Source: Neolewinella lacunae (lineage in GTDB: Bacteria > Bacteroidota > Bacteroidia > Chitinophagales > Saprospiraceae). Taken from it: 64,000 bases of DNA. The position numbers and the translations under genes were made by a program. Below the pieces are notes generated by a model. It saw nothing but the letters and a program-made list of their open reading frames with translations. It was not told the DNA's origin and searched no databases. Below, one piece after another: positions 3,951-60,295 of this stretch. Within the stretch, counting starts at the first letter, position 1. Each line of letters starts with the position of its first letter. The stretch spans positions 214,362-278,361 of the forward strand of contig NZ_JACSIT010000152.1 in the NCBI RefSeq assembly GCF_014349155.1, in the 5' to 3' direction.

Positions 3951-3968
3951 GGGCGCGGTCGCAGGTGC
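3951..3968 (+). repeat. 18-bp dispersed repeat, copy 1 (1 mismatch)
   Basis: Matches GGGCGCGGCCGCAGGTGC with one change (C to T at 3959). It starts 32 bases after the recQ stop and points the same way as recQ. Confidence 0.85.
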
Positions 3969-4140
3969 AAGGTTCAGGCTTAAGGACAGGGGAAGGCCAA
4001 AGACTCCCAACGAATACGCCCCCGAGTGCCTCGACATTCGGGGGCGTAGTTCGTTACCAGCCCTGCGTAATCTTGCGTTGCATCAAGAACGGGGGAGCGG
4101 GCGGGGCCGATCTTTGCCTCCCACAACAAACTGCCCCACG

Positions 4141-4698
4141 ATGCAAGCCCGCAATACCGCCGACCTCCTGGCTGCCCTGACCCGCCGGACGGAAGAGAAC
4201 CTGGCCGTTGCCCGTTCTTTCCTTGCTTTGGATTCCGCCACCCTGCACCTGCGGCCGCGCCCGGATGCCTGGAATGCGCTGGAATGCCTGGCTCACCTGA
4301 ACCACTACGGCGATTATTACCTGCCCGAGATCCGCCGGCAAATGGCGACGACACGGCACCGGGGAGCGGCAGCCACCTTCACCTCCTCGTGGCTCGGCAA
4401 CAAATTTGCCGCCGGCATGAAGCCCGGCCCGGCGATGCGCAAGATTTCCACCTTCCGCAGCGCCAACCCCCAAAACTTTTCTGCCGCCGTCGGCCTGCCC
4501 GCCGTCGTGGAATTCATCCGCCAACAGGAAGATCTTCTGGATTTGCTCCGCCTGGCCGCGCAGGTAGACCTGACCAGAACGAAGACCGGCATCAGCATCA
4601 GCCGCCTGATCCGGCTACGGCTCGGCGATACCCTGCGCGTGGTGGTGTACCACAACTGGCGGCACATCCTGCAAGCCCAGGCGGCCATCGCCGGTTAA
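4141..4698 (+). CDS. DinB-like four-helix protein
   Basis: A 185-aa member of the DinB/YfiT-like superfamily of metal-binding four-helix bundles. Several members act as thiol-dependent transferases or hydrolases; the substrate here is unknown. Typical signs are the PDAWNALECLAHLNHYGDYY segment near 42 and the C-terminal YHNWRHILQAQ near 171, whose histidines match the usual metal ligands. The start at 4141 is chosen because upstream in-frame sequence is low-complexity and not family-like. A copy of the 18-bp dispersed repeat lies inside the gene at 4245-4262 and encodes HLRPRP just before DAWN. That position normally holds a proline-containing turn, so the repeat may be tolerated or may have arisen there. 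Confidence 0.75.
   Translation: MQARNTADLLAALTRRTEENLAVARSFLALDSATLHLRPRPDAWNALECLAHLNHYGDYYLPEIRRQMATTRHRGAAATFTSSWLGNKFAAGMKPGPAMRKISTFRSANPQNFSAAVGLPAVVEFIRQQEDLLDLLRLAAQVDLTRTKTGISISRLIRLRLGDTLRVVVYHNWRHILQAQAAIAG
4245..4262 (-). repeat. 18-bp dispersed repeat inside the DinB-like gene
   Basis: Exact reverse-complement copy (GCACCTGCGGCCGCGCCC) within coding sequence, read in frame as HLRPRP. It is the only exact copy I find inside a gene. Confidence 0.9.
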
Positions 4699-4761
4699 GC
4701 GCACTGAGGCATTTTCCGGCTTCGTCGGCCCCGGATCCTCCCAGACTGCGCGGTGGCAACG

Positions 4762-4769
4762 TACCTTTG
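4762..4769 (+). promoter_or_regulatory. TACCTTTG -7 box directly before a start codon
   Basis: A perfect Bacteroidota TAnnTTTG box. Its last base is separated from the ATG at 4774 by only four bases. Known transcription starts lie a few bases after this box, so the mRNA should begin at or next to the ATG, i.e. be leaderless. Confidence 0.6.
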
Positions 4770-4773
4770 TGGC

Positions 4774-5220
4774 ATGTACCGATTATCGTCCAACGCCACT
4801 TTGTTTCTGAAGATTTTCGTGCCCGTGTTTTGGACCACGATCCTGGCCGGCGTTACGCTCGTGGCCTGGCTGGCGGAGGCCAAATACTTTGCGGGCATCC
4901 CCCTGACGTCTTTCCGCTGGGCTACGCTTTTCACCCTCGTGGCGGCCGTGGCCAGCTTCTGGCTCCTGCTCTGGCGGCTTAAGCGGGTGGAGACAGACGG
5001 GGAGAAAGTATACATCAGCAATTACTTCCGCACGGCCTTTTACGAATGGAGCCGGGATGTGGAACGCATCTCCTACAGCCGCTTTTTTTTGCTCAAGGTA
5101 GCCACCATCGAACTCAACGGGGTGGGAAGTTTTGGCCGAAAGCTGTACTTTGTGACCAGCAGCAGTTTGCTGAATACCTTCCGCACGGACTTTCCAGGGG
5201 TACTTCCCGAAGAAAAGTAA
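4774..5220 (+). CDS. Small two-helix membrane protein, unknown function
   Basis: A 148-aa protein with two predicted membrane helices (about 10-32 and 42-65), then a soluble tail of about 80 residues rich in beta-strand patterns (RVETDGEKVYISNYF; ATIELNGVGSFGRKLYFV). That layout resembles small bacterial PH-domain-like membrane proteins, but I cannot assign a family firmly. The ATG at 4774 is preferred over one seven codons upstream because the TACCTTTG box at 4762-4769 overlaps the upstream extension. The gene stands alone between the DinB-like gene and the OmpA-type gene. Confidence 0.7.
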   Translation: MYRLSSNATLFLKIFVPVFWTTILAGVTLVAWLAEAKYFAGIPLTSFRWATLFTLVAAVASFWLLLWRLKRVETDGEKVYISNYFRTAFYEWSRDVERISYSRFFLLKVATIELNGVGSFGRKLYFVTSSSLLNTFRTDFPGVLPEEK

Positions 5221-5418
5221 CGAAAGCGGATGGCGTGGCGGAGAAGCGGAAGCGGGGTGAAAAACGTTATCTCTCCGGTCTCGATACCGGCCCAGTGGCC
5301 AGCCGGAAGCCGGGTACCGCTGATGGGCCAGTAGCGGTGGCAGACTGCATGGGAGGAAAAGCCCCATTGCAACACCCCGCCTTTCGCCGCGTTATACTTT
5401 CAAACCAAGCATTCATCA

Positions 5419-6600
5419 ATGCGACTTTATCCCTATCTCTTGACACTCACCCTTTCGATTTATGCCGCTGCGGCGCTTAGTGCGCAAGGGGATGGTACGC
5501 TCTTTCTTCGCAATCCCTCGTTTGAGGATATGCCGCGCAACAGTGCGGCACCGTTGGGCTGGACGAACTGTGGATTTCCCGTGGAAACCCCGCCCGATAT
5601 TCACCCCGATCCGAAATTCGAATTCAGCGTAAGCAAGCGGCCCTTCGACCAAAAGACCTACCTCGGTATGGTCACCCGCGAAAATGAAACCTACGAAAGT
5701 GTGGGCCAGCAACTGGGCGCGCCAATGGTGGGCGGGCAGTGCTACGAGTTCCGCATTCACCTGGCCCGCTCGGAGGTGTACCTGAGCCGCAGCCGCCTTA
5801 CGGGTGCACCCAGCAACTACAACACGCCCATCCGGCTCAAAATTTACGGTGGTTACTCCATCTGTGACCGGGCGCAGGAACTGGGCCGCTCGGCCGTGGT
5901 GAGCAACTACGACTGGCAGGAATACCGCATCAAGCTTTCCCCGGACGAAGATTACACCCACATCACGCTGGAGGCCTTTTACAATACCCCCATGCTGGTG
6001 CCCTACAACGGGAACCTCTTGCTGGACAATATCCAGCCCATCCGCCCGATTGATTGTGAAAAAGACCTGAACCTCCCCGATGGCCCGGCGGAGGCCCCGG
6101 TAGTGGTGCTCACCAACCCGGAAAACCGCATCCGGACGACGCCCGTAACGCCCCGTGGATCCCAAAACCCACCCAACGGAAGCAATTCTTCCCCCCCCGC
6201 CCCCAAGGTGAAACTGGGCCTCACCGAAGCGGCGCTCCGCGAAGGACAGGTCTTTGCCATCGAGGAAATCACCTTTAAGGCCAACAGCGCCGAACTGGAA
6301 GCGGAAAGCGAGGAAGCGCTGCAGGAAATCGTTGGGTTCATGCAACAGAACAAAAACGTGGTGGTAGAAATTGGTGGCCACGCCAGCCGCCTGGCCAGCC
6401 CCTCTTTTGCCAATAGCCTGAGCGAAAACCGTGCCCGCTCCGTAGTAAGCTACCTCAAGACCTACAACATTGGCTTCGAACGGATGCTGCCCAAAGGCTA
6501 CGGCAACAGCCGGCCCGTGTGTATGGACAACGCCCCCGACTGCAACCGCCGCAACCAGCGGGTAGAGGTTAAAATCCTTAAACTGCGCGAAAGCCGTTGA
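5419..6600 (+). CDS. OmpA-family protein with N-terminal NPSFED domain
   Basis: A 393-aa exported protein: signal peptide at 1-23 ending ALSAQ, then a domain opening NPSFEDMPRNSAAPLGW, typical of carbohydrate-binding-like beta-sandwich modules at the front of Bacteroidota envelope proteins. A Pro/Asn-rich linker (about 230-262) leads to a C-terminal OmpA peptidoglycan-binding domain (about 275-390), with NSAELEAESEEALQEI, GGHAS and SENRARSVVSYL. It probably sits in the outer membrane or periplasm and anchors to peptidoglycan. The minus-strand lipoprotein gene converges on it, with a terminator hairpin at 6630-6658 between them. The precise role is unknown. Confidence 0.85.
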   Translation: MRLYPYLLTLTLSIYAAAALSAQGDGTLFLRNPSFEDMPRNSAAPLGWTNCGFPVETPPDIHPDPKFEFSVSKRPFDQKTYLGMVTRENETYESVGQQLGAPMVGGQCYEFRIHLARSEVYLSRSRLTGAPSNYNTPIRLKIYGGYSICDRAQELGRSAVVSNYDWQEYRIKLSPDEDYTHITLEAFYNTPMLVPYNGNLLLDNIQPIRPIDCEKDLNLPDGPAEAPVVVLTNPENRIRTTPVTPRGSQNPPNGSNSSPPAPKVKLGLTEAALREGQVFAIEEITFKANSAELEAESEEALQEIVGFMQQNKNVVVEIGGHASRLASPSFANSLSENRARSVVSYLKTYNIGFERMLPKGYGNSRPVCMDNAPDCNRRNQRVEVKILKLRESR

Positions 6601-6629
6601 TTCTTCACCGCAGCGTCCCGCTAAAAAAA

Positions 6630-6658
6630 GTGCCCGGTACACATCGTGTACCGGGCAC
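6630..6658 (-). terminator. Rho-independent terminator (minus strand)
   Basis: A perfect 13-bp stem (gtgcccggtacac, 6630-6642, with 6646-6658) and a 3-base loop. Read on the minus strand it is followed by a run of seven T. It therefore terminates the lipoprotein gene that ends at 6688, and the stem may also slow plus-strand transcription leaving the OmpA-type gene. Confidence 0.85.
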
Positions 6659-6687
6659 CGTAGTTCAGGGGGTTGGGAGAATGCTTG

Positions 6688-7572
6688 TTAGTTGCAGGCT
6701 TCGCGGACGTCGGCCCAGTCTTCCCGCCCGGCGAGGGTGATCGCCTCACCGGTTTCGGTGATGGTGACGGTAACGGGGTAATCCAGGGTAATGGTTGCGC
6801 CGCGACGGGCTTCGTGGACTACGCGGTTCCACTCCCGGCGGGTGTCTACGGAGACGGAGACGGAATCCACCAGGATATTGACGGGGTAAACGTAAGTGAA
6901 GCAGGGATTGAGGTCGTGGTCGGCACGGTCGTCTTCGTGGCCACAGTTGTAGCGCAGGCGGGCCAGTTGGGCTGCGTTTTCCAGGGTCAGGGTTGAACCG
7001 TCGGCGAGGGTAACGGTGATGGGGTAATTGATCGTTACGGCAACGCCACGGCCAGCGGCAATTACCGCGCGGTGCCATTCTACGTAGTTATTTACCGTCA
7101 CGGTGCGGCGGGCGATGTTGAGTTCGATGGGGAAGTTGTAGTCGAAGCAACGCTCTTCGCGGTCACCACAGGCCAGGACAAGGCGGCGGAATTCGCGGAA
7201 GTTATCGATGGTGACTACCCGTTCGTTGGCCAGCGTGACGTCAAAAGGATAGACGAAGTTGCCGCGCAGGCTGCTGTTGCGGATGCGGGCGAGGAGCGCG
7301 CGCAGTTCGGGGCGATTCTCGGCCGTCACCGTCGTGCCATTGGAGAGGATGATCTCCACGGGGAAAACGAACTGGAAACAGTGGTAGCTTTCCTGTTCTT
7401 CCGTGATATTGGGTGGCGGCAAAGCAGCCTCGAGCAAATCGGGCATTTCCTCTTCGATTTCTACGTTGATGAGGGTTTCTTCCACGAAGGCGTCTTCATC
7501 GCAGGCGGTAAAGACGAGGGCGAAGGCCAGGAGGAAGAGGAAGGGGAGAATGTTTTTTGGGAAATTGAACAT
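6688..7572 (-). CDS. Lipoprotein built of YP-V repeats
   Basis: A 294-aa lipoprotein with a signal peptide ending in the lipobox-like FTAC (lipidated Cys near 22) and an acidic stretch after it. The rest consists of about six related units of 35-45 residues. Each has an aromatic-Y/F-P-V/I/F strand, a turn, a T-V/L-T strand and an EW/EF helix; examples are NFVYPFDVTLANERVVTIDN, INYPITVTLADGSTLTLEN and LDYPVTVTITETGEAITL. I do not recognise a named function; similar lipoproteins occur in marine Bacteroidota. The start at 7572 gives a clean signal peptide. It is divergent from the ECF sigma gene at 7720, which hints at a link but does not prove one. Confidence 0.8.
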   Translation of the reverse strand: MFNFPKNILPFLFLLAFALVFTACDEDAFVEETLINVEIEEEMPDLLEAALPPPNITEEQESYHCFQFVFPVEIILSNGTTVTAENRPELRALLARIRNSSLRGNFVYPFDVTLANERVVTIDNFREFRRLVLACGDREERCFDYNFPIELNIARRTVTVNNYVEWHRAVIAAGRGVAVTINYPITVTLADGSTLTLENAAQLARLRYNCGHEDDRADHDLNPCFTYVYPVNILVDSVSVSVDTRREWNRVVHEARRGATITLDYPVTVTITETGEAITLAGREDWADVREACN

Positions 7573-7719
7573 TGGGTAATGATTTGTGAATGGCCTTTGG
7601 GGGGCCACCCGGGTGATGAGGAGGAGTGCGTTGCGCACCCTTCATAAACCCAAATCCGAAACGCGCAATTTACCCTACCTTGGCCACGAAAATATTTTCA
7701 AAGCGTCGAATTTTCTTCC

Positions 7720-8244: not shown

Positions 8245-8265
8245 ACCCCCGGATGGTGGGGGCCA

Positions 8266-8283
8266 GGGCGCGGCCGCAGGTGC
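8266..8283 (+). repeat. 18-bp dispersed repeat, copy 3
   Basis: Exact copy starting 22 bases after the sigma-gene stop and in the same orientation. The match with the copy at 26731 extends further (agggaaagg after the 18-mer), so some copies share a longer flank. Confidence 0.9.
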
Positions 8284-8406
8284 AGGGAAAGGGACGCTGG
8301 CAATGGCCGTCCGGACAAAAAAAGTCCGCCCCCAAAAAAAACTACGGAACCGGGGTAGGGTAAAACGCGGCCAAGCGATTACTTTAATGACACATCCTCC
8401 ATCACC

Positions 8407-9381: not shown

Positions 9382-9384
9382 CGT

Positions 9385-15900: not shown

Positions 15901-16353
15901 GGGGTGGCCCTGAGCCGGGAAAGGCTGGTCTTACCCGTGGATGTAGAGGATGCCAGCCTGGAAGAAGCCGTCTTCGGGGCTTCGCTCTTCGTGCCGGTGG
16001 GCTTCAGTTACAGCCGCAATATCGGGGGCAGCAAATCGCTGACTTTCTTCGGTTCCTTGCTGGATCTGGGGGCGCTAACGGCTTTCCGCCTGGAGTCGCG
16101 GGATGAAGCGCCCGGCAGTGCCCGGGTGGATCGCCTGCCCGAATTCCGCCCCGCCAACGTCATCGCTCCCGGTCTGCACGTCCTGTACAACTTTCCGAAA
16201 TCGCCGTTCAGCCTCGGCATCGGTGCGCAGGACGGACCCAGCGTCCGCAAATTCACTGCCGAGGGCTCTCCCGTCGTCCGCGAAGCCCGCTCCGTCCGGG
16301 GCATGGTCACCTTCAGCGTAGACGTGCCGATCTTCCGCTTTTTCAATAAGTAA
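12973..16353 (+). CDS. Large exported protein of unknown function
   Basis: An 1126-aa protein with an N-terminal signal peptide (about 1-27, ending VAYSQ). Residues 30 to about 960 look almost wholly alpha-helical, with many charged heptad-like stretches. The last 140 residues switch to alternating strands (VELGAYFGVALSRERL; GFSYSRNIGGSKSLTFFGSL; MVTFSVDVPIFRFFNK), as in a small outer-membrane barrel or beta-sandwich. The aromatic ending FRFF followed by N-K resembles outer-membrane proteins that need a C-terminal aromatic residue for assembly. No named domain is recognised. The gene follows an unrecognised helical protein and ends 10 bases before an 18-bp repeat. An alternative start four codons later (12985) is possible. 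Confidence 0.75.
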   Translation: MRKHMTPSLRFLLLGGVFLLSCVAYSQNIGLDLQRVIRLAPVAREIGEPVDNPALDTIVLTLAYYGGMPDAEQVDRLLSGPELLNHYRNNADVRAFLLNERLDKLLEDYTPPSGLAFPPTIATEGRASFLQELPGAELFSRGHKVDLGKIRQTFTSPPSTEFNLKAAAEGANNAPTGLSSANLVGNALAGLSDWISRRAQEELTYTFLTKLREDINRNKLEHLFPETSNFLPSLDLLNYKAILPSIRKAFVEDLNAIAFNLGNFLEAQDVAGFRNPEVYNVFLIYRILDLEMREVPLADILAFTYGELERARIDTRCQIDLRMAKVDTTNPAYQEILLAFDDYIRTTDNLNTQFAAAENLLSSQFFNPILDAVETGDLPEDVRQGFYQRAAELFLPLDAEKLPLKNNYWELKPDPPATGIVRAWLRGQEAYEYYEAYPSLTRFDELFGPEALPFDAIERRAAGLTAVRELLAQRRDLEIYAAQIDRLVNARAAFIDLRQEVSNYEEATKLAELSSADKLKILLESIDAELAYTPAPEQPALRLLRKIAEEIIPGQPNADKQINATRQRLADWVMARGDSGSPFLGKMKTGPSEAANLPPLQAAIDATGEAYDQLHGAVQRYSSSRADSLVRTYQNLTTFETVFGMAQQVFFLLSDADSDLFIDKKDMAIFQTNTSARHLLAGLSQERITRVPNLGPLNAPGIADFLLDFGLYLSDFRALPADEQLAGFPEGTVRRIQAVAFITNTLESILTAELLQDPSSEGGAFTLTDQFPAFEKVPEVSHELNEIFRLSQIGEYRYAVDNLLNLLRLFDILPAASKKQQRLESQRDDLRKLIDNHVIEKNEALRAVALATPSSEDLPMLGDERDEKRLQLYSSQLLSETDPLSREEIANSIRDLKIQRIREELNMVEKRIAKLNPSRVDQFRENLFRYGTFMADVANAESPAEFENALNTVALPAGSSQIKRNRPSSVELGAYFGVALSRERLVLPVDVEDASLEEAVFGASLFVPVGFSYSRNIGGSKSLTFFGSLLDLGALTAFRLESRDEAPGSARVDRLPEFRPANVIAPGLHVLYNFPKSPFSLGIGAQDGPSVRKFTAEGSPVVREARSVRGMVTFSVDVPIFRFFNK

Positions 16354-16362: not shown

Positions 16363-16380
16363 GGGCGCGGCCGCGGGTGC
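16363..16380 (+). repeat. 18-bp dispersed repeat, copy 4 (1 mismatch)
   Basis: Matches the 18-mer with A to G in the AGGTGC end. It begins 10 bases after the stop of the gene at 12973, in the gene's orientation. Confidence 0.85.
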
Positions 16381-16467: not shown

Positions 16468-16485
16468 GCACCTGCGGCCGCGCCC
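16468..16485 (-). repeat. 18-bp dispersed repeat, copy 5
   Basis: Exact copy on the minus strand, one base beyond the stop of the helicase gene (16487). With copy 4 it forms an inverted pair between two convergent genes. Confidence 0.9.
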
Positions 16486-20929: not shown

Positions 20930-21268
20930 GTTTCTTAGCTTTTAGTTGCCAAGATCATTTCAAATAGCGTGCCAAAGTGATAAATTATTGATTTACAGCT
21001 ATTTATGAGCAGTTGAGAAAAACGTGAAATGTTTAAATTTAAACAATTGATTATTTATCTCCTTAATCTGAAGTGCGGGAAATGCTGTGCAGTTTTTCAT
21101 ACTGCGATTCGCCCCCAAAAGGTATTTCCAGCTGCCGTTAGTGGGTGTCAATACTGAAAAGGCCGCTGAAAGTCGCAAGGTAGTGCAATGGGCTGGTAGT
21201 AATTCGTTTTGCGCGGCCGCAGGAGCTGAAACAGGTAAAAGAGCAAAGGAAGAAAACGAACCAAAGTC
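20930..21268. promoter_or_regulatory. AT-rich upstream region with palindrome
   Basis: No gene is supported here. The part from 20941 to 21090 is far more AT-rich than the rest of the window and holds the perfect palindrome TGTTTAAATTTAAACA at 21030-21045, about 100 bases upstream of the sigma start. A degenerate copy of the dispersed repeat is at 21211-21226. Confidence 0.5.
21211..21226 (+). repeat. Degenerate, partial copy of the 18-bp dispersed repeat
   Basis: Reads GCGCGGCCGCAGGAGC: the first two G are missing and one T is A. It lies 43 bases beyond the stop of the amine oxidase gene, but in the opposite orientation to that gene. Confidence 0.6.
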
Positions 21269-22466: not shown

Positions 22467-22484
22467 GCACCTGCGGCCGCGCCC
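22467..22484 (-). repeat. 18-bp dispersed repeat, copy 6
   Basis: Exact copy, 9 bases beyond the LysR stop and in the orientation of that gene. Confidence 0.9.
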
Positions 22485-26730: not shown

Positions 26731-26748
26731 GGGCGCGGCCGCAGGTGC
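26731..26748 (+). repeat. 18-bp dispersed repeat, copy 7
   Basis: Exact copy 40 bases after the stop at 26690, same orientation. The flank agggaaagg is shared with the copy at 8266. Confidence 0.9.
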
Positions 26749-28199: not shown

Positions 28200-28217
28200 A
28201 AACTAGGGCTGGTCTTA

Positions 28218-28300
28218 CCTTGCTCTCCCCCTTTGGGGGTTGGGGGGCCAACAAACTCCCCCCTTCGGGGGGGCGGGGGGGAGCACCTGCGGCCGCGCCC
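28218..28300 (-). repeat. 83-bp compound repeat, copy A
   Basis: On the minus strand this is the exact 18-bp dispersed repeat (28283-28300) followed by a C/G-rich part able to form two hairpins (ccccc/ggggg around ttcg and around ttt). It matches 35309-35392 and 43635-43716 almost base for base. Here it separates purA from mfd and points opposite to both. Confidence 0.9.
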
Positions 28301-34952: not shown

Positions 34953-35309
34953 ATGGCCAAAATGTACCAACTCAGCACCTGCAATACTTGCCAGCGCATC
35001 CTGCGCGAGCTCGGCGAGCAGCCCGACCTGGAGGTCTCCAACATCAAAGAAACGCCGATTACTGCGGCGGAACTTGATCGGATGGCCGAGTTGGCGGGCA
35101 GCTACGAGGCGCTTTTTAACCGGCGGGCCCAGAAGTTTCGCGCGCTCGGTCTGGCCGGGCAAAAGCTGGAAGAAGCCGACTACCGCCGCCTGATTCTGGA
35201 AGAATACACTTTCTTGAAACGGCCCGTCACCATCGTTGGCGACCAAATTTTCATCGGCAACGCCAAGCAGGCCGTGGCGGGTACGGCGGCTGCACTGGCG
35301 AAGAAATAG
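34953..35309 (+). CDS. ArsC/Spx-family thioredoxin-fold protein
   Basis: A 118-aa protein of the ArsC/Spx/YffB group. The N-terminal CNTC motif (near 10-13, YQLSTCNTCQRILREL) is the redox CxxC of Spx-like members, and FLKRPVTIVGDQIFIG near 86 holds the conserved cis-proline region. It is the right length for the family. Whether it reduces arsenate, acts as a glutathione/thioredoxin-linked reductase or regulates RNA polymerase like Spx cannot be told from sequence. Its TAG stop overlaps the first base of an 18-bp repeat. It follows msrA, which fits a role in thiol redox. Confidence 0.85.
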   Translation: MAKMYQLSTCNTCQRILRELGEQPDLEVSNIKETPITAAELDRMAELAGSYEALFNRRAQKFRALGLAGQKLEEADYRRLILEEYTFLKRPVTIVGDQIFIGNAKQAVAGTAAALAKK

Positions 35310-35392
35310 GGCGCGGCCGCAGGTGCTCCCCCCCGCCCCCCCGAAGGGGGGAGTTTGTTGGCCCCCCAACCCCCAGAGGGGGAGAGCAAGGT
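35309..35392 (+). repeat. 83-bp compound repeat, copy B
   Basis: The exact 18-mer (35309-35326) plus the C/G hairpin part. It begins on the last base of the ArsC/Spx-type stop codon, pointing the same way as that gene, and ends about 110 bases before hemF. Confidence 0.9.
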
Positions 35393-35462
35393 GAGGCCAG
35401 GCCAGCATTGGGATTACTGCAAGGCTTATGCCGCTCGCGCCGACGGAGCAACCGCGCTGCCT

Positions 35463-41870: not shown

Positions 41871-41886
41871 GCACCTGCGGCCGCGC
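41871..41886 (-). repeat. 18-bp dispersed repeat, copy 10 (truncated)
   Basis: GCACCTGCGGCCGCGC is exact, but the last two bases are changed (aa for CC). It lies between the divergent App1-like and porX genes. Confidence 0.8.
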
Positions 41887-42070
41887 AAATAAAAAAAGAC
41901 AATACTTTCTCCCCCGACTTCACCGTTCCAACCATCCCACCGCCTTAAACGTAGTATCTTTCCCTTCGTTTTGGCAGACTTACCACACAAAACTGCGGCA
42001 AACACGTTACTAGTTTCTTTCTCCCCGCAAGACCAAGCCTTTTCAGCAAGCTTTAAACCCCACACTCCGC

Positions 42071-43627
42071 ATGGATCAAATCACCATTCTCTGGGCTGAT
42101 GACGAAATAGACCTCTTCAAACCCCAACTGCTGTTTCTTGAGAAGAAAGGTTACGCCGTCGTCACCGTCACCAACGGACACGACGCCCTGGAGGAATTGC
42201 AGAGCAATGGGGACATCGACATAGTGTTTCTGGACGAATCCATGCCCGGCCTCACTGGCCTGGAGACCCTGAGCCGCATCCGGGAAAGCAACTCCAACAT
42301 CCCGGTGGTGATGATCACCAAGAACGAGGCCGAGCACGTCATGGAAGAGGCCATTGGCAGCCAGATTGCTGGCTACCTCCTCAAGCCCGTTAACCCCATG
42401 CAGATCCTGCTGACGCTCAAAACGATCGTCGACGAAAAGCGCCTGGTGCGGGAAAAAACCAACACCGATTACCAGCAGGATTTTCGCCAGCTGCTGATGC
42501 AAATCAACAGTGGCCTCGATAAGGCCGAGTGGGTGGAGGTCTACAAGAAAATCATCAACTGGGAGATCAAACTGGAAGACAGCCAGAGTGAGCAGATGGG
42601 CGAAATCCTGGCCGTCCAGAAAAAGGAGGCCAACGCCGAATTCAGCAAGTTCATCGACCGCAATTACCTCGACTGGGTCGGTGGCGAAGACGCCCCCATC
42701 ATGTCCCACAATCTGATGCGGGAGAAAGTATTTCCCTACATCAATAAGGACCGGCCCACGGTCCTGGTCTTGCTCGATAATATGCGCTACGACCAGTGGA
42801 AGGTCATCGAGCCCTACCTCACCCAGCTTTACAAGGTGGAGGAAGAAGACTACTTCTACAGCATCCTGCCCACCGCCACGCAGTACAGCCGGAACGCCAT
42901 TTTCGCCGGTATGCTGCCCAGCGACATCGCCAAGCACTACAAAGACTGGTGGAAAAACGACGCCGAGGAAGGCGGCAAGAACAACCACGAAGCCGACTTG
43001 CTCGGCAAACAAATCGAGCGCATCCTGCGGCGCGGAGACATCAAATGGGAATACACCAAGGTGACGCGCACCAACTTCGCCCGGCAGATGCAAGACCGGG
43101 CCCTGGATTTTTTGAACAACGACTTCAGCGTCATCGTCTACAACTTCATCGATATGCTGAGCCACGCCCGTACGGAGATGGAAGTGCTCAAGGAGTTGGC
43201 CGGCGACGAAAAAGCCTACCGCAGCCTCACCCGCAGCTGGTTTGAAAACAGCCCCCTTTGGGCCACCTTACGCAAACTCGCCGAGCGCGACATCCAGCTC
43301 ATCGTCACTACCGACCACGGCACCATCCGCGTCAATACTCCCAGCCGGGTCGTCGGAGACCGCGACACGAGCACCAACCTGCGCTACAAGCTCGGCCGTA
43401 ACCTCAACTACGAAGAAAAAGACGTTTTTGAAGTCCGCGACCCTGCCAAAGCCATGCTCCCCCGGCCCAACCTCAGCTCCACGTTCATCTTCGCCAAGGA
43501 AGACAAGTTCTTCCTCTACCCCAACAACTACAACTATTACAACAACTACTACAAGGACACCTTCCAGCACGGCGGCGTCAGCCTGGAAGAGATCATCTGC
43601 CCCATCGTTAGGCTGCGTAGCCGGTAG
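42071..43627 (+). CDS. porX: PorX: response regulator with PglZ phosphatase domain (T9SS)
   Basis: A 518-aa two-component regulator known to control the type IX secretion system. The receiver domain (about 1-125) has acidic residues in ILWADDEIDLF, the phospho-Asp in IVFLDESMPGLTG near 55, and the Lys in AGYLLKPVNPMQ near 106. The PglZ alkaline-phosphatase-like domain (about 200-515) has TVLVLLDNMRYDQWKVIEPY near 236 and IVTTDHGTIRVNTPS near 413. Family knowledge: PorX binds zinc, dimerises when phosphorylated by PorY, and acts with SigP. Neither partner is in this window. The cargo-type protein at 55253 has the matching T9SS sorting domain. The compound repeat begins 8 bases after the stop. 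Confidence 0.96.
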   Translation: MDQITILWADDEIDLFKPQLLFLEKKGYAVVTVTNGHDALEELQSNGDIDIVFLDESMPGLTGLETLSRIRESNSNIPVVMITKNEAEHVMEEAIGSQIAGYLLKPVNPMQILLTLKTIVDEKRLVREKTNTDYQQDFRQLLMQINSGLDKAEWVEVYKKIINWEIKLEDSQSEQMGEILAVQKKEANAEFSKFIDRNYLDWVGGEDAPIMSHNLMREKVFPYINKDRPTVLVLLDNMRYDQWKVIEPYLTQLYKVEEEDYFYSILPTATQYSRNAIFAGMLPSDIAKHYKDWWKNDAEEGGKNNHEADLLGKQIERILRRGDIKWEYTKVTRTNFARQMQDRALDFLNNDFSVIVYNFIDMLSHARTEMEVLKELAGDEKAYRSLTRSWFENSPLWATLRKLAERDIQLIVTTDHGTIRVNTPSRVVGDRDTSTNLRYKLGRNLNYEEKDVFEVRDPAKAMLPRPNLSSTFIFAKEDKFFLYPNNYNYYNNYYKDTFQHGGVSLEEIICPIVRLRSR

Positions 43628-43634: not shown

Positions 43635-43716
43635 GGGCGCGGCCGCAGGTGCTCCCCCCCGACCCCCCGAAGGGGGAGTTAGTTGGCCCCCCAACCCCCA
43701 AAGGGGGAGAGCAAGG
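43635..43716 (+). repeat. 83-bp compound repeat, copy C
   Basis: The exact 18-mer (43635-43652) plus the C/G hairpin part. It starts 8 bases after the porX stop in the porX orientation and ends about 20 bases from the convergent patatin stop. Confidence 0.9.
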
Positions 43717-43736
43717 GAAGTCTGGCCCAGCCGGGC

Positions 43737-48289: not shown

Positions 48290-48307
48290 GGGCGCGGCCG
48301 CAGGTGC
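48290..48307 (+). repeat. 18-bp dispersed repeat, copy 12
   Basis: Exact copy between two minus-strand genes, pointing opposite to both. It lies 48 bases beyond the TPR gene stop. Confidence 0.9.
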
Positions 48308-50280: not shown

Positions 50281-50298
50281 GCACCTGCGGCCGCGCCC
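50281..50298 (-). repeat. 18-bp dispersed repeat, copy 13
   Basis: Exact copy, about 100 bases beyond the tonB stop in tonB orientation, after the hairpin at 50343-50378. Confidence 0.9.
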
Positions 50299-52242: not shown

Positions 52243-53544
52243 TTATTTATTGACTTGGGCCTTGAGCCAGTCGCTGGTTACTGACTTGGGCCTTTCCAGG
52301 GGCATACCCAGGGCGCGGCTCCAGATGCCGGCGGCCAGTACGCCGAGGGCCCGGCTGACGCCGAACAGGACGGTATAGTAGCTGTACTCCCGGAAGCCGT
52401 AGTGTACGAGGAGGGCACCGGAGTGGGCATCGACGTTGGGCCAGGGGTTTTTGACTTTGCCGAGGCCTTCGAGGATGGGGGGGACAACGTCAAAGATGTT
52501 CCAGACGGTGGTGATCAGGTTGCTGTCCTTGATGTACTGCTCGGCAAACTTGCGCTGGGCGGTAAAGCGGGGGTCGGGCTCCCGCAGTACGGCGTGGCCG
52601 TAGCCGGGGATGACCTTGCCTTCGGCCAGGGTGTTGTTTACGTAGTCCGCAATCTGTTCTTTCGTGGGGCGGTCGGTGCCGAGGGCTTCGATCATTTCGA
52701 AGATCCACTTGATCACTTCCTGGTTGGCCAGGCCGTGGAGGGGGCCCGCCAGCGCATTCATGCCAGCGGCGAAAGACAGGTAAGGGTCGCTCAGGGTGGA
52801 GCCTACCAGGTTGACGGTGTGGGCCGATGCGTTGCCCCCCTCGTGGTCAGCGTGGATGGTGAGGTACAGGCGCATGAGGCTGCGGAAGTCTTCGTCGTCA
52901 CTGCCCAGCATGTGGGCATAGTTGGCGCTGTAGTCGAGGGTGGTATCCGGAGCGATGTGCTTACCCCCTTTGAACGCGCGGCGGTAGATGTACGCCGCCA
53001 CGCGCGGCAAGCGGGCGATGAGGTTCATGCTGTCTTCGTAAACCGCATCCCAGTATTCGCTTTTGGGCATGCCCTCGGCGTAGCGCCGTTCGAAGATGCT
53101 GGTGGGCTGCATGGCCATGATGCCGATGGTGAACTGCGTCATCGGGTGGGTGTCTTCCGGAAGGCTGTCCAGGGTCTTGAAAACCTGGTCGGGGACGCCA
53201 GCGCGGGCGTGCCAATCGGCCGTCAGCCCGTCCACCTCCGCAGCGGTAGGAATTTCGCCCGTGAGCATGAGCCAGAACAAACCTTCGGGCTTGGGTTCTC
53301 CCTGGGGGCCGCTGGGGAGTAATTCTTTCAACTCGGGGATGGAATAACCACGAAAACGGATGCCCTTGATGGCGTCGAGCTGGCTGGTTTCCCACAGCAT
53401 CATCTTGATGCTTCGCGCCCCTCCGGTGATCTGTCCCAGGGTTACTTCGTCCACCTTTAAATCACCGTGGGCCTTGTTGATTTCACGCAGCTCCTGGTAA
53501 AGGGCAATGGCTTTTTCAGCGAATTTCTGTTTAAGGGATTCCAT
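52243..53544 (-). CDS. gltA: Citrate synthase, mitochondrial-like type
   Basis: Condenses acetyl-CoA and oxaloacetate in the TCA cycle. The 433-aa protein looks closer to eukaryotic mitochondrial citrate synthases than to E. coli GltA: GLFWLMLTGEIPT near 88, the catalytic His block LTIHADHEGGNASAHTVNLV near 228, AAGMNALAGPLHGLANQEV near 260, PGYGHAVLREPDPRFTAQR near 313, and the Asp in NVDAHSGALLVHYGF near 370. It heads a minus-strand run with gcvH, vanZ and tonB. Together with icd at 23520 it supplies two TCA steps. Confidence 0.95.
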   Translation of the reverse strand: MESLKQKFAEKAIALYQELREINKAHGDLKVDEVTLGQITGGARSIKMMLWETSQLDAIKGIRFRGYSIPELKELLPSGPQGEPKPEGLFWLMLTGEIPTAAEVDGLTADWHARAGVPDQVFKTLDSLPEDTHPMTQFTIGIMAMQPTSIFERRYAEGMPKSEYWDAVYEDSMNLIARLPRVAAYIYRRAFKGGKHIAPDTTLDYSANYAHMLGSDDEDFRSLMRLYLTIHADHEGGNASAHTVNLVGSTLSDPYLSFAAGMNALAGPLHGLANQEVIKWIFEMIEALGTDRPTKEQIADYVNNTLAEGKVIPGYGHAVLREPDPRFTAQRKFAEQYIKDSNLITTVWNIFDVVPPILEGLGKVKNPWPNVDAHSGALLVHYGFREYSYYTVLFGVSRALGVLAAGIWSRALGMPLERPKSVTSDWLKAQVNK

Positions 53545-55113: not shown

Positions 55114-55120
55114 CGGGTCG

Positions 55121-55252: not shown

Positions 55253-57331
55253 TTACCGCTTGACCATCCGCACCCGGCCGGTGCGGGTCCCGTCAGTCCA
55301 CCGCACAAAGTACACGCCGGCGGGGAAGGCCGCCAGGTCCACCGCAATCCGGGGCTGACCCGTGAAGACGTTGTGCTGCACTACCCGACGGCCGTTGCCG
55401 TCGAAGACTTCGATCTGGCCCTGCCCGCCCGTCCGCAGCTCGGGAAGTTCAAGGGTGAACTCCCCGCCCGTCGGGTTGGGGTAGGCCCGCAGTGCCAAAG
55501 CCGCCGGGCGGTCGGGGGAGCGGGTACTCGTCAGGAGTGCGTCGAGGTCGTGGCGCACGATGAAGCCGTCACCGCCGCTGAACCAGTAGCGGCCGTTCGG
55601 GGTCAGGGCACCGGCACGGAACGCGTAGCAATTGTAGGCAACGGCTTCCCAGGTGACTCCGTTGTCGCGGGAGACCGCTACTTCCCCGTTGTTGCCGGAA
55701 GCAAAGCGGTTGGTGAGCAGCAAGCCGTCGCTCGCCCGGCGGGTGATGTCGTAACCTCCCTGGTCGTTCTGGCTGGTCCAGGTCATGCCGCCGTCGGTCG
55801 TCACGTGGCGGCTGGAGGCGGTGGATACCCAGCCGTTGGTGGGAGTGGTGAAGTAAACGTCGACGGAGTTGTTGGCCGGCCCCACGCCCGCCGTCCAGGT
55901 CTGGCCGCCGTTGGTAGTGGTGGCAAACTGCGACTGCCGCCCCACGGCGTAGCCCCGGTTTTGGTCCAGAAAGAAAATGGCCGAAGGCTCGTAACCGAGG
56001 CTATGGGCAATCGCCGTCCAGCTCTGCCCATCGTTGGTCGTCACGTAAGCAAAGGTGCCCGACATCAGGTACAGGTCACCGTTGGGCTTCACCCCGATCC
56101 TCTGTGGGGTGTTGTTATCCGTCACCACGGCCCCGGGGAGGAACGGCGTAAAACTGGCACCCCGGTCGGTGGTAATCTGCACCCCGGACGAGCCCAAAAC
56201 GATGGCCGCACCGTTGCTGAGTGCGTGGAGATCCCGGCCGAATTGGTTCATTTGTGTCCGCGTCCAGGTCAGTCCCGCGTCGGTAGTGGAAAGGAGTTCG
56301 TTGCCATTGATGGCGTAGCCCAGGGTGTTGGTGGCAAAGGCCAGGTGCTCAAGCCGATCCAGGCGGCCGAAAGGGGCCAGCTCTACGAAATTGGCAAAAT
56401 CCTGGGGGGAATAAAGCAACTGGCTCTGGTTGCCTACCGTAAAAATTTCGTTCCCCCGGCGGTGGTACTTTTCGTTTACCCGCTGGGTGCTGGCCGGGAT
56501 AAATTCGTTGCGCGTCCACGTCACCCCACCGTCGAGGCTCTCCAGGCGGCTGTTCACCACCTGGGCCCCTACGAGGTGGGTGGCGGAAAGGGCGATGAAC
56601 CAATTGACGGAAGTGAGCTGGGAAGTAGGGTTGAGCAGGGTCCAGGTAGTCCCCCCGTTGGTGGTGCGGTAAAAAAGGCGGTCGGAGTCAAACAACCAGC
56701 CGCGGCTGGCGTCCAGCCAGGCCTGCTTCAGTACCGTTTTGGGGTGGGTGTAGCTCGTAGCGGTGAACGTGGCACCGTTGTCGGTACTCCGGTACAGCGT
56801 GTTGTCAATGAAGACGAAAATATTGTTGGCGACCGAAAAGTCCATATTCCCCCTGCTGTTGCCGGGAAAATCGATGGAAGTCCAGGTGCGGCCGCCGTCG
56901 GCGGAGCGGTCGTAGTAATTGCCGCCCGTTTCGTGGATTACTACGTTGGCAGTGAGCCAGTGGAGCTGGCCGTTGCTCGTGAAGTCGGGGTAATCGACGG
57001 GGCTCCAGACGTTACTGGCCAGGCGGAAAAAGCCGGTTTCAGTGGAGAGCATGGCCGTTGCGCAGCCGCCCGGGGCGCAGGCAATGCTCTCAATGTTCTC
57101 GTCGGTGGGGGAGGTCACCGTCGTCCAGCTTTGGCCACTGTCGGTCGTGCGGCGCAGGACTCCGCAGGTGCCTGCGGCAAAGCCCACGCCGGCAGCGTCA
57201 ATGTGGATGTCCTGGAAATGGGTGATGAAATCCGCTGGGTAGCTAACCGGGATATCCGCCTGGGCGCGGACGCAGGTGCCTGCGAACAGGACGAGGAGCA
57301 GGGGAAGGCAGAGATGGGCAAGGGAGCGCAT
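55253..57331 (-). CDS. Secreted YCF48/BNR-repeat protein with T9SS sorting domain
   Basis: A 692-aa exported protein with a signal peptide (about 1-23, LFAGTCVRAQ). About 12 YCF48/BNR-like beta-propeller blades recur, each with a T-DGG/N-G-x-T/S-W core (TTDSGQSWTTV; SADGGRTWTSIDFPG; TTNDGQSWTAI; TTNGGQTWTAG; VSRDNGVTWEAV). The last 75 residues form a type A Por sorting domain (RAYPNPTGGEFTLELPEL; FPAGVYFVRWTDG then RMVKR) that directs export by T9SS and surface attachment. It likely binds or displays an extracellular ligand; the ligand is unknown. It is transcribed away from thiL. Confidence 0.9.
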   Translation of the reverse strand: MRSLAHLCLPLLLVLFAGTCVRAQADIPVSYPADFITHFQDIHIDAAGVGFAAGTCGVLRRTTDSGQSWTTVTSPTDENIESIACAPGGCATAMLSTETGFFRLASNVWSPVDYPDFTSNGQLHWLTANVVIHETGGNYYDRSADGGRTWTSIDFPGNSRGNMDFSVANNIFVFIDNTLYRSTDNGATFTATSYTHPKTVLKQAWLDASRGWLFDSDRLFYRTTNGGTTWTLLNPTSQLTSVNWFIALSATHLVGAQVVNSRLESLDGGVTWTRNEFIPASTQRVNEKYHRRGNEIFTVGNQSQLLYSPQDFANFVELAPFGRLDRLEHLAFATNTLGYAINGNELLSTTDAGLTWTRTQMNQFGRDLHALSNGAAIVLGSSGVQITTDRGASFTPFLPGAVVTDNNTPQRIGVKPNGDLYLMSGTFAYVTTNDGQSWTAIAHSLGYEPSAIFFLDQNRGYAVGRQSQFATTTNGGQTWTAGVGPANNSVDVYFTTPTNGWVSTASSRHVTTDGGMTWTSQNDQGGYDITRRASDGLLLTNRFASGNNGEVAVSRDNGVTWEAVAYNCYAFRAGALTPNGRYWFSGGDGFIVRHDLDALLTSTRSPDRPAALALRAYPNPTGGEFTLELPELRTGGQGQIEVFDGNGRRVVQHNVFTGQPRIAVDLAAFPAGVYFVRWTDGTRTGRVRMVKR

Positions 57332-57490
57332 AGTTCAGGTTTTTGCGTAGGGACGAAAAAGGGAGGGAGATTCCATAAAACTAAGGACTTTTGTCCGCAA
57401 TTCCCTTGCCGGGCCAACAAGTTCCCCGCCGTCGGGCAACTTGCTGCCGGGCGGAGGGTTACCTTCATTGCACCCAAAGCGACTTTCTTT

Positions 57491-57508
57491 GCACCCGCGG
57501 CCGCGCCC
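57491..57508 (-). repeat. 18-bp dispersed repeat, copy 14 (1 mismatch)
   Basis: One mismatch, the same A to G change (plus-strand reading of the consensus) as at 16363. It lies between the divergent T9SS-cargo and thiL genes, 48 bases from thiL. Confidence 0.85.
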
Positions 57509-57555
57509 GTTTGTTGCTGCCGCCACCGCCGCAGCGTAGCTAACCCCACCCCCTT

Positions 57556-58590
57556 ATGGCAACCCGTACCGACGTAAATACCCTGGGCGAATTTGGCCTG
57601 ATTGACCGCCTGACCGCCCCTTTCCAACTCCGCCAGCCAAGCAGCCTGCTGGGCATTGGCGACGACGCGGCCATCATCGATACCGGCGGCCACGAACACC
57701 TCGTGGTCAGTACCGATATGCTCGTGGAAGGCATCCACTTTGATTTTGCCTACACCCCCTTGAAACACCTGGGCTACAAGGCCGTAGCCGTCAACGTGTC
57801 CGACATCTGCGCGATGAACGCCCGGCCCCAGCAGATCACCGTCAGTATTGCCCTGAGCAACCGCTTCAGCGTGGAAGCCCTCGAAGAACTCTACGCGGGC
57901 ATCCAGGCCGCCTGCGAGGCCTACGGCGTGGACCTGGTGGGCGGCGATACGACGAGCTCCACCAAAGGACTCATCATTTCCGTTACCGCCATCGGACGGG
58001 CCCCGGCCAGCCGCATCACCCGCCGCAGCGGCGCCAAGGCGGGCGATCTCATCTGCATCACCGGCCACCTCGGCAGCGCCTACCTCGGCCTCCAACTCCT
58101 CGAACGGGAGAAGCAGATTTACCTGGCCAACCCCGGCACCCAGCCGGAAATGAAGCCAGAAAACAAAGACCTCTACGCCGCCATCCTCCGCCCCGAAGCA
58201 CGTACCGATATGGTCGATCTGTTCGCGAAAAATGACATCGTACCCACGGCCATGATTGACATCAGCGACGGACTGGCCAGCGAGCTGATGCACATCTGCA
58301 AGGCCAGTCAGGTGGGCGCCATCCTTGAAGAGGCCAACGTCCCCATCCGTCCCGAAGCCCAGCTGCAAGCCCTCGAATTCAACCTCGACCCCATCACGTG
58401 CGCCCTCTCCGGCGGCGAAGACTATGAGTTGCTTTTTACCATCGACCCCAAAGACCTAGAAAAAATCCGCTTCCTGCCCGATATCTACATCGCTGGCGAG
58501 ATCGTCCCGACGGCCGATGGCATCAAGCTCCACACCGTCGGCGGCAACATCCACGACCTGAAGGCCCAGGGGTGGAGCCACTTCGGGTAG
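57556..58590 (+). CDS. thiL: Thiamine-monophosphate kinase
   Basis: Phosphorylates thiamine monophosphate to the pyrophosphate cofactor. The 344-aa protein has the ThiL/PurM-like signatures: LLGIGDDAAIIDTGGHEHLV near 32, STDMLVEGIHFDFAYTPLKH near 53, AVAVNVSDICAMNARPQQIT near 77 and YGVDLVGGDTTSSTKGL near 122. ISDGLASELMHI is near 236 and SGGEDYELLF near 282. It stands alone, with no other thi genes in the window. Confidence 0.95.
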   Translation: MATRTDVNTLGEFGLIDRLTAPFQLRQPSSLLGIGDDAAIIDTGGHEHLVVSTDMLVEGIHFDFAYTPLKHLGYKAVAVNVSDICAMNARPQQITVSIALSNRFSVEALEELYAGIQAACEAYGVDLVGGDTTSSTKGLIISVTAIGRAPASRITRRSGAKAGDLICITGHLGSAYLGLQLLEREKQIYLANPGTQPEMKPENKDLYAAILRPEARTDMVDLFAKNDIVPTAMIDISDGLASELMHICKASQVGAILEEANVPIRPEAQLQALEFNLDPITCALSGGEDYELLFTIDPKDLEKIRFLPDIYIAGEIVPTADGIKLHTVGGNIHDLKAQGWSHFG

Positions 58591-58616
58591 TGGGCTGAAT
58601 GCAGTGTGCATTCAGC

Positions 58617-59075
58617 TTAGGGCTCTTGTCTGCCTTCTTCTTCCTGCGGAAAATTCTCGCGGATGTGATCGAGAAGGCGGGTGAGTTCGGCGTAGTCGCT
58701 GGCCGTCAGGCCCGTCCAGGCACGGATGCGGAGTTCCTCGACGCGGGGGAAGAGCAGTTCGTGGGCCTGCTCGCCGGCCTTGGTGAGGGCTACCATGTAG
58801 CGGCGGCGGTCGTTGGGGAAACGCCGGCGTTCGGCCAGTTTTTTGGTGGCCAGCTTATCGATGATCCGGGAAACGGTGGGCGCATCTTTGAAAGTGCCGT
58901 TGGCCAGGTCGGTTTGGGAAGAGGCCCCGGCCTTGTAGAGGTGGTCCAGCACCACCCATTGTTCGGGCGTAATGTCTACGCCAGCGTCGCGGAAAGCACG
59001 CTGGAATTCCGCCTTGAGGAGGCGGGTGGTACGGTCGAGCATCGTGCCGACGTTGGCGTAGGAGAGTTGGCTCAC
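58617..59075 (-). CDS. MarR-family transcriptional regulator
   Basis: A 152-aa winged-helix regulator. ITPEQWVVLDHLYKAGASSQ near 35 and TVSRIIDKLATKKLAERRRF near 70 give the DNA-binding helix; DRRRYMVALTKAGEQAHELL near 90 is the wing. It converges on thiL with 26 bases between stops. A TACCTTCG box at 59103-59110 (minus strand) is a probable promoter. The target and effector are unknown. Confidence 0.9.
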   Translation of the reverse strand: MSQLSYANVGTMLDRTTRLLKAEFQRAFRDAGVDITPEQWVVLDHLYKAGASSQTDLANGTFKDAPTVSRIIDKLATKKLAERRRFPNDRRRYMVALTKAGEQAHELLFPRVEELRIRAWTGLTASDYAELTRLLDHIRENFPQEEEGRQEP

Positions 59076-59102
59076 GTGTTAAATTCCGGGTGGTTATACC
59101 GG

Positions 59103-59110
59103 CGAAGGTA
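59103..59110 (-). promoter_or_regulatory. Promoter-like box of the marR gene
   Basis: TACCTTCG on the minus strand, 27 bases before the start at 59075. Confidence 0.4.
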
Positions 59111-59266
59111 AGGATTAAGCGCGGCTATGTTAATTTCTGGTAAGCATACAAAGCGTCAAAACACGGGCTTTTATCCGGCAGCTACCGTGGCGGGGAGTGG
59201 ATGAACCGGGGGCGCTTGGCGCTTTTCCGGGGCGTTTGGGCGGTTTTTGCCCTTGGTCTTTGCCCG

Positions 59267-59284
59267 GCACCTGCGGCCGCGCCC
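59267..59284 (-). repeat. 18-bp dispersed repeat, copy 15
   Basis: Exact copy 7 bases beyond the stop of the hydrolase gene and in its orientation. Confidence 0.9.
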
Positions 59285-59291
59285 ATCTGTT

Positions 59292-60146
59292 TTACCGCGC
59301 TAGGTAGTAGTTGTAGAGCAACTGTTCGGGCAGCCAGTGGCTTCCGGAGTAGGGCATGACCTGGACCGAGGGTAAGGGGCCGTAGACGGCTTCGAGGCGC
59401 TCGTGGTGTAGTAAGGGGTCGCGGTCGCCAGCAAAAACGGTGGCAGTGATGTTGCGCTTGCGCAGGGCCATTTCGAGTTCCTCCGGGCGGGGCGGAAAGT
59501 GAAGGATGCTGCGCAGCGACCCGGCCAGTCGGCGGCGGAAAGTGCCGTCTTTGAGGTTGTAGCTGAGGTACTCAGCCGAATATTTATTGATGACGCCCCG
59601 GCGGCGGAGCCACTGGCTGAGGCGCAGCAGGTAGCGGGGGCGTTCGGAAAACTTGGCCAGCGGGCGCACCAGCGAGCGCGGTAAAGTATCGATCCAGTTC
59701 GTGTAGCGGCCGCCGGCACCGTCGGGGGCCACCAGGGCGAGATCGCGCACGTCGGGATGCTCCAGCAGCGGCAGGGTTGCGCTGAGCAGGCGGCCACCGA
59801 GGCTGTGGCCCAGGAGGTAAACGGGCTGGTCTTGGTAATCGGCCAGCAAGCGATTAAACAGGGCAGCCAATTCCGCTGGAAGGTACTGTTGCCGCACCCA
59901 TTCCGACTTTCCGTGGTAGGGCAGGTCAGGGGCGAAGGTGGTAAAGTGCTCGCCCAGCGCCAGGGCCAGGCGCTCCATCCGGCGGCCGTTGCGGCCAAAG
60001 CCGTGGACGGAAAGCATGATCCGCGGCCCGTGGCCGTAGTGGTGCACGTAGAGGCGGTCTTGGGAAATGGGCGTATCCAAGGTTTCCCGACCGTCTTTGG
60101 TCAGGAAAAAATCAGCGGGCGGTGCAGAAGTCAGGCGGGTAAGCAT
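59292..60146 (-). CDS. Alpha/beta-hydrolase
   Basis: A 284-aa esterase/lipase-type enzyme. The oxyanion segment is LSVHGFGRNGRRM near 46, the nucleophile elbow VYLLGHSLGGRLLSATLPLL near 108 (GHSLGG Ser), the catalytic Asp probably in FAGDRDPLL near 239 and the His in YSGSHWLPEQLL near 267. There is no signal peptide, so it is cytoplasmic. The substrate is unknown. The start at 60146 is taken because longer upstream frame crosses a dispersed repeat and is not family-like. Confidence 0.88.
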   Translation of the reverse strand: MLTRLTSAPPADFFLTKDGRETLDTPISQDRLYVHHYGHGPRIMLSVHGFGRNGRRMERLALALGEHFTTFAPDLPYHGKSEWVRQQYLPAELAALFNRLLADYQDQPVYLLGHSLGGRLLSATLPLLEHPDVRDLALVAPDGAGGRYTNWIDTLPRSLVRPLAKFSERPRYLLRLSQWLRRRGVINKYSAEYLSYNLKDGTFRRRLAGSLRSILHFPPRPEELEMALRKRNITATVFAGDRDPLLHHERLEAVYGPLPSVQVMPYSGSHWLPEQLLYNYYLAR

Positions 60147-60277
60147 CGGTAAATACGGCCCGGCTTTGCGGCGACGGGGCAGCGAGTATACGCCTGGGAA
60201 GGGGTAAGGGTTCAGCCAAAGCTTTAGGGGACAGCCCCGGAAACAGCGCTTGGCGGGCTCCAGGGGCGTGTTGAAAG

Positions 60278-60295
60278 GGGCGCGGCCGCAGGTGC
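60278..60295 (+). repeat. 18-bp dispersed repeat, copy 16
   Basis: Exact copy between two minus-strand genes, pointing opposite to both, 46 bases past the GNAT stop. Confidence 0.9.

Follow-up and report, generated by a model that had tools for sequence, protein, structure and literature searches.

An 18-bp motif is scattered in several hundred copies through the genome of Neolewinella lacunae, and copies on the same strand exclude one another at short range. We analyzed this motif in a 64,000-nucleotide stretch of the genome (contig NZ_JACSIT010000152.1, positions 214,362 to 278,361; hereafter the window), in which an earlier note made from the sequence had listed 17 copies, and then in the whole genome and in related genomes. 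High copy numbers of the motif are confined to the genus Neolewinella, where it exists in species dialects. The reading we favor, with about an even chance of being correct, is that the motif is a directional signal for the uptake or transfer of self-DNA, of the uptake-sequence kind, kept by molecular drive.

Within the window, 19 places matched the 18-mer with three or fewer mismatches compared with 0.46 expected by chance, and the largest number found in 100 shuffled sequences was three. A whole-genome count, which the earlier note had named as a check, revealed 596 exact copies in the 5.8-Mb draft of 154 contigs and none of the reversed control, and a relaxed pattern with the variable positions opened, GCGSKGNCGCAGGTGC, gave 1,191 copies, also with none for its control. 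The claim of an excess beyond chance was thus confirmed at both scales. The claimed bias to one strand was not: the exact copies were divided 308 to 288 between the strands, and no orientation with respect to replication was detected (net orientation versus GC skew, r = -0.05 over 39 blocks). All of the window coordinates listed earlier were correct except that of a degenerate copy, which starts at 21209 rather than 21211. Twelve of these 17 sites were exact, with one mismatch at 3951, 16363 and 57491, two at 41871 and three at 21209. A further copy inside a gene at 57262 (+ strand, one mismatch) had been missed, and the 19th match, at 52311 with three mismatches, looks like a chance occurrence. 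Fifteen window copies carried an intact 13-position core, of which 13 were intergenic and two (4245 and 57262) in genes according to crude gene calls. Nine copies (3951, 8266, 16363, 16468, 22467, 26731, 35309, 43635 and 59267) lay 0-40 nt past a stop codon in the same orientation, the stop before the 16363 copy being that of an open reading frame ending at 16353. The copies and their associated elements were as follows.

3951-3968, + strand: copy GGGCGCGGTCGCAGGTGC; intergenic, same-strand stop 31 nt before.
4245-4262, - strand: exact copy; antisense within a called DinB-like gene (4141-4698, + strand), reads LHLRPRP.
8266-8283, + strand: exact copy; intergenic, same-strand stop 21 nt before.
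16363-16380, + strand: GCGGGTGC variant with one mismatch; faces the 16468 copy in an inward pair.
16468-16485, - strand: exact copy in the gap of convergent genes; its inward partner is 16363.
21209-21226, + strand: degenerate copy, three mismatches, followed by block-B-like sequence.
22467-22484, - strand: exact copy; intergenic, same-strand stop 9 nt before.
26731-26748, + strand: exact copy upstream of the adenylosuccinate synthetase gene.
28283-28300, - strand: exact copy, with aligned copies in other species.
28233-28282 (ends approximate), - strand: pair of C-rich hairpin inserts separating block A from block B in the 28283 copy.
28211-28232 (ends approximate), - strand: the purine-rich block B (GGGAGAGCAAGGTAAG) that belongs to the 28283 copy.
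35309-35326, + strand: exact copy; its first G is the final base of a TAG stop.
35377-35400, + strand: block B of the 35309 copy, past two C-rich hairpin inserts.
41871-41888, - strand: copy of the TTGCGCGG form.
43635-43652, + strand: exact copy; same-strand stop 7 nt before.
43702-43725, + strand: block B of the 43635 copy, past two C-rich hairpin inserts.
48290-48307, + strand: exact copy; intergenic.
50281-50298, - strand: exact copy; intergenic.
57262-57279, + strand: copy GGGCGCGGACGCAGGTGC; antisense in the signal peptide of a BNR / Por_Secre_tail protein (55253-57331, - strand), reads GTCVRAQ.
57491-57508, - strand: GCGGGTGC variant with one mismatch; pairs inward with 57262 at a distance of 229 bp.
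59267-59284, - strand: exact copy; same-strand stop 7 nt before.
60278-60295, + strand: exact copy; intergenic.

Exact copies were identified in 18 of 120 genomes, every one of the same genus, whose members are about 75-80% identical to the N. lacunae genome. Relaxed-pattern counts in these relatives included 1,065 (G005), 750 (G014), 646 (G018) and 618 (G013), and were lowest in G010 (two) and G001 (one); outside the genus, one match each was found in 4 of 99 genomes. Among the matches listed from a pattern scan were many Neolewinella or Lewinella contigs, along with isolated hits in unrelated genomes, most of them GC-rich. The G010 genome (GC 0.505 in the sample), which did not contain the 18-mer in quantity, carried its own motif, GNCTTCAAAGTAGCANNG, in 328 copies; this motif was absent from 59 other genomes searched. 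In G001, 11 places within two mismatches of CGGCGGAGCGCAGGT were found in 80 kb. Repeats of other kinds were also observed in the genus: tandem arrays of GTCGGCCGACGAC units in G017 (contig C3, 100001-120000, at about 130-700 of this segment) and palindromic CTACGCGTAGCGACGGCTT units recurring about 107 bp apart in G006 (contig C1, at about 78.3-79.9 kb, the end of an 80-kb stretch).

Spacing, motif anatomy and gene context in N. lacunae were analyzed in 841 kb from six contigs, four of which were chosen because they headed the genome-wide match list. Only three same-strand pairs lay less than 2 kb apart, compared with 50.0 expected under random placement. When strand labels were permuted on fixed positions the mean was 28.2 such pairs, and none of 5000 permutations gave a value as low as three. 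The deficit extended to pairs at 2-4 kb (22 versus 48.3 expected), and the ratio was approximately 1 from 4 kb up. In contrast, opposite-strand pairs below 2 kb were as frequent as expected (55 versus 52.6). Same-strand gaps had a mean of 7.8 kb and a coefficient of variation of 0.50. Pairs within 400 bp comprised 23 inward, five outward and no same-strand pairs, with inward tail-to-tail pairs below 150 bp numbering 15 versus 2.0 expected and their excess over outward pairs falling at 60-150 bp.

The same deficit below 2 kb was observed in G005 (3 same-strand pairs versus 13.2 expected), G014 (0 versus 8.9) and G013 (1 versus 14.1), with permutations as low in 3, 30 and 0 of 5000, respectively. 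Opposite-strand pairs in these three genomes together numbered 41 versus 37, and their same-strand gaps had coefficients of variation of 0.82, 0.65 and 0.72. The different motif of G010, examined at the first 66 of its 328 places, gave one same-strand pair below 4 kb versus 8.2 expected and 13 opposite-strand pairs versus 8.1. That two dissimilar motifs obey a single spacing rule suggests a common type of process whose reader changes. We also considered strict alternation of strands as a general rule and rejected it, as it was strong in N. lacunae and missing in short samples of other species (alternating versus same, 2/8 in G005, 2/6 in both G014 and G013, and 3/4 in G008). The real property is short-range same-strand exclusion, not alternation. 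Such exclusion requires that DNA be read directionally: a motif of this length exists solely where it is maintained, so a nearby same-strand copy is redundant and an opposite-strand copy is not.

Alignment of 205 copies with full flanks and two or fewer mismatches revealed a motif that begins abruptly on its 5' side and hardly varies at positions 3-6 and 10-18. Position 7 was G or T, and position 9 could be any base (C in 73% and another base in 27%). Downstream of this segment (block A, GGGCGC[GT]GNCGCAGGTGC) lies a purine-rich block B, approximately rAAGGAGCARGGRAAG, with 7-10 bases preceding its first conserved base. In held-out copies, block B scored at least 7 bits in 86 of 116 cases, compared with two upstream and six in shuffled sequence; a held-out test was used since a motif refitted upstream had also reached 136/232 in a first control. 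Dozens of copies carry hairpin modules of about 21-22 bp between the two blocks (0, 1 or 2 per copy; window examples at 28211-28300, 35309-35400 and 43635-43725), and block B is shifted about 22 or 43 bases further when one or two of these C-rich hairpins intervene. The hairpins directly followed block A in 58 of 63 cases in N. lacunae, and none was found in 1.59 Mb from ten other species. A subfamily, GGGCGCGGCCGCAGGCGATAGTCCCGGAGGATTTCGGGATGC, has a different small hairpin past the core in N. lacunae (e.g., C19:52661, C19:59444, C32:66034, C19:18040 and C123:11050). Degenerate partner arms for solo copies were not found; partners were either strong (at least 15-20 bits downstream, in 35 of the scored copies) or absent. 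The 13-position core was intact in 211 copies and carried one mismatch in 16, compared with 0 and 7 for the reversed control. A core that stays unmutated while the spacer differs at many positions is unlike a neutral repeat.

Copies were also present inside genes. Fifty-five of the 211 intact-core copies fell within called genes, and 15 of these were antisense and no more than 52 nt from the predicted start. Fourteen of the 15 shared one reading frame, in which the DNA encodes TC[VGA][RS]A, usually with Q as the next residue, where a signal peptide ends (the signal-peptidase site). Similar coding copies were found in unrelated proteins of five other species, where 13 of 15 candidates were judged by eye to be signal peptides; no signal-peptide copies were seen in 80-kb samples of five further species. 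The encoded residue followed the dialect, with VSAQ in G013, VPA in G008 and G017, and VRAQ in G014. An intact copy was present in 2 of 13 examined homologues of the 55253-57331 protein. A G005 homologue (57% identity) has the motif. A G018 homologue (63% identity over the first 309 residues) has the same length and no motif, with MRSEFYPSLLLLLGLFLSTGVRAQSDIPVS versus MRSLAHLCLPLLLVLFAGTCVRAQADIPVS at this place. By sequence comparison, the signal-peptide copies thus look to have arisen by mutation rather than insertion.

Orthologous gaps were surveyed for three window sites in up to 20 species. A copy was present in 4 of 20 species at site 28283, 4 of 19 at 26731 and 3 of 18 at 35309, and all 11 had the same orientation. 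The alignment was exact or off by a single base for all four copies at 28283 and for two of those at 35309; at 26731 the distances varied. Neighboring copies off these sites also occurred, one of them upstream and in the opposite orientation (G013, site 26731). With coding identity of about 75% at the three sites, neutral sequence should be unrecognizable there.

The earlier note had further claimed that copies gather at the 3' ends of genes, with about ten after stop codons. This was nearly right in the window, with nine, but did not generalize to the 841 kb. By our own crude hexamer scoring of genes, 152 of the 205 copies were intergenic, 51 were in genes and two were at gene edges. The intergenic copies pointed away from a same-strand 3' end in 73 cases and from an opposite-strand 5' end in 79. 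In gaps between tandem genes, 44 copies had the same orientation as the genes and 39 the opposite, which is not the pattern of intrinsic terminators, and a role at 3' ends or in termination was rejected. Copies per kb numbered 1.0 in gaps between tandem genes, 1.3 between divergent genes and 1.4 between convergent ones. Copies that did follow a same-strand gene were close to it (49 of 73 within 40 nt of the stop), and this closeness is what the earlier reader took for a 3'-end pattern. The copies are therefore largely indifferent to stop codons and orientation, an outcome that the earlier note had said would refute its proposal; the excess over chance holds nonetheless, and the motif proves to be more unusual than that note had described.

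We also searched for machinery that could act on the motif. ComEC domains were found in 21 of 21 genus genomes. A Y1_Tnp transposase domain, the mark of the REP-associated tyrosine transposase (RAYT) that the earlier note had proposed to look for, was present in 20 of 21 genomes without relation to copy number; the exception is G018, whose genome nevertheless contains 646 copies. Motif-like sequence was found at 5 of 20 Y1_Tnp loci compared with about four expected from motif densities, and at L050, the locus inspected of the two in N. lacunae (the other is on C73), no motif copy lay within about 1.5 kb. No link to a transposase beyond chance was thus seen. Searches of the window against Rfam gave no match, and a search for tRNA genes there found none. 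Separately, the window gene at 42071-43627 (+ strand) encodes a response-regulator receiver and a PglZ domain, a combination that we take to be that of PorX, which regulates type IX secretion.

The Pasteurellaceae and Neisseriaceae are the established cases of sequence-specific DNA uptake, and the uptake signal sequence (USS) of the former has flanking positions beyond its core, as does the motif described here. The likeness to the USS extends to some 1,000 or more copies on both strands, no chromosomal orientation bias, in-gene copies, even spacing and a proposed origin by point mutation, whereas the core of the Neolewinella motif is longer. With the DNA uptake sequence (DUS) of the Neisseriaceae it shares species dialects within one family, inverted pairs and coding copies. 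It differs from the DUS in that convergent genes do not flank most of its inward pairs, a wholly different motif occurs within the genus, and ComP-type pilin machinery was not in evidence. Thus, an excess on both strands, a kept core with a variable flank, coding copies without insertion (from one equal-length homologue comparison) and dialects were all found, as for USS and DUS, but no type IV pilus-type uptake machine was; we therefore term the motif uptake-signal-like and do not class it as a USS or DUS. Published reports describe, for USS, even spacing (citing Karlin), uptake in Haemophilus indifferent to orientation and evolution by point mutation (PMC1939737), long fragments and USS pairs (PMC7811141), and, for DUS, dialects, copies in coding sequence and inverted pairs (PMC3630211). 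In the Bacteroidota, R. columbina favors its own DNA in transformation, and the accessible part of that report names only A-rich words from k-mer counts of up to 10 bp, with no such motif (PMC7965970). No report of the motif was found in the open-access literature on uptake sequences in Bacteroidota or Lewinella.

Several results weigh against an uptake or transfer signal. ComEC was also present in 10 of 14 control genomes and hence proves little, and no convincing match to the type II secretion / type IV pilus ATPase (PF00437, T2SSE) was found in 21 genomes, the matches being short stretches of 20-25 bits of which one that was checked was ClpB. The exclusion is strand-specific here, whereas orientation is reported to be irrelevant to uptake in Haemophilus, so that spacing by strand is not known as a feature of the USS. 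The same-strand deficit at 2-4 kb was slight in other species (11/13.0 in G005, 6/8.5 in G014 and 10/13.2 in G013), as was alternation along contig C11 of G013 (28 versus 21). Finally, about 58 N. lacunae copies carry the same C-rich hairpin insert, which implies a copying process, and identical inserts in many copies are not accounted for by drive on point mutations. This shared insert, private to N. lacunae, instead suits a mobile family of repetitive extragenic palindromic (REP) or miniature inverted-repeat transposable element (MITE) type, moved by an unknown transposase as solo units and tail-to-tail pairs, as do the high copy numbers in some species and low numbers in others and the prevalence of inward over outward and same-strand pairs within 400 bp. 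The motif also resembles REP, REPIN-RAYT and Correia-type repeats in its hundreds of short intergenic copies and inverted pairs. It departs from them in having no linked Y1_Tnp gene, a core that is unmutated despite diverged adjacent bases, and copies in one functional frame at signal-peptidase sites of unrelated proteins, with length-neutral presence or absence between homologues. A mobile family would also leave the strand-specific exclusion unexplained, and we regard it as quite improbable; the REP-like reading raised in the earlier note is unsupported.

The exclusion itself would be predicted by the main rival, a Chi-like site read inside the cell by a one-way RecBCD/AddAB-type helicase-nuclease or translocase, with one site per strand every several kb, no upkeep of redundant same-strand copies and the strands independent. 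Chi is likewise read directionally and strand-specifically, and in-gene copies and the lack of a transposase link are consistent with such a reader. However, known Chi sites are 5-8 nt long, whereas the present 18-mer has 13 near-invariant positions and is accompanied by block B. The orientation of Chi in E. coli is biased with GC skew, a bias absent from the Neolewinella motif, and a complete change of motif within one genus would be odd for a repair enzyme, which makes a Chi-like site an unlikely explanation. Strand-specific exclusion at a headful-like length would also be explained by a donor-side transfer machine, for instance a gene transfer agent that starts packaging at a pac-like motif. 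The one portal family tested, Phage_portal (PF04860), was found in only 2 of 21 genomes and was absent from N. lacunae, and we consider a packaging start very unlikely. A transcription terminator or regulatory site is barely credible: inward pairs could form long hairpins and some copies adjoin stop codons, but orientation to genes is random, the close inward pairs lie in nine tandem, four divergent and only two convergent contexts, and copies occur in both senses deep within genes. Of the readings raised in the earlier note, which also included a chromosome-organizing word, the uptake word fits best because it brings together molecular drive, dialects, coding copies and the lack of orientation bias to genes. 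Uptake or transfer with molecular drive would account not only for the spacing but also for the dialects, for an origin by point mutation and for copies in coding sequence.

As an uptake or transfer signal, the motif would be recognized by a receptor through block A and the purine-rich block B about 15 bp further on, and its orientation would set the strand or direction of the DNA taken up or transferred. Since no type IV pilus ATPase was recognized, the uptake machinery would differ from that of known systems. Incoming DNA, with ComEC present, would recombine with the chromosome; alleles with a good motif would be transferred more often, and the motif would accumulate by point mutation and molecular drive. 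This would occur wherever the sequence permits, between genes and in genes with tolerable residues, above all in signal peptides. A second same-strand copy in one transferred stretch (about 2-5 kb) would add nothing, giving separate, even combs on each strand, and a change of receptor between species would give dialects. More broadly, we tentatively propose, with somewhat less than an even chance of being right, that Neolewinella has a strand-directional, type IV pilus-independent system for uptake or transfer with a long two-block signal, whose readers diverged to a different motif within the genus under the same spacing and whose signal shaped the signal peptides of secreted proteins. If this is true, sequence-specific uptake evolved again in the Bacteroidota with other machinery. 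From genome sequence alone, strand-specific spacing would then provide a quantitative mark of a reader that works in one direction and of how much DNA is handled per event (about 2-5 kb), and the recurring signal-peptide end TCV[RSP]AQ would be accounted for as the trace of a DNA signal.

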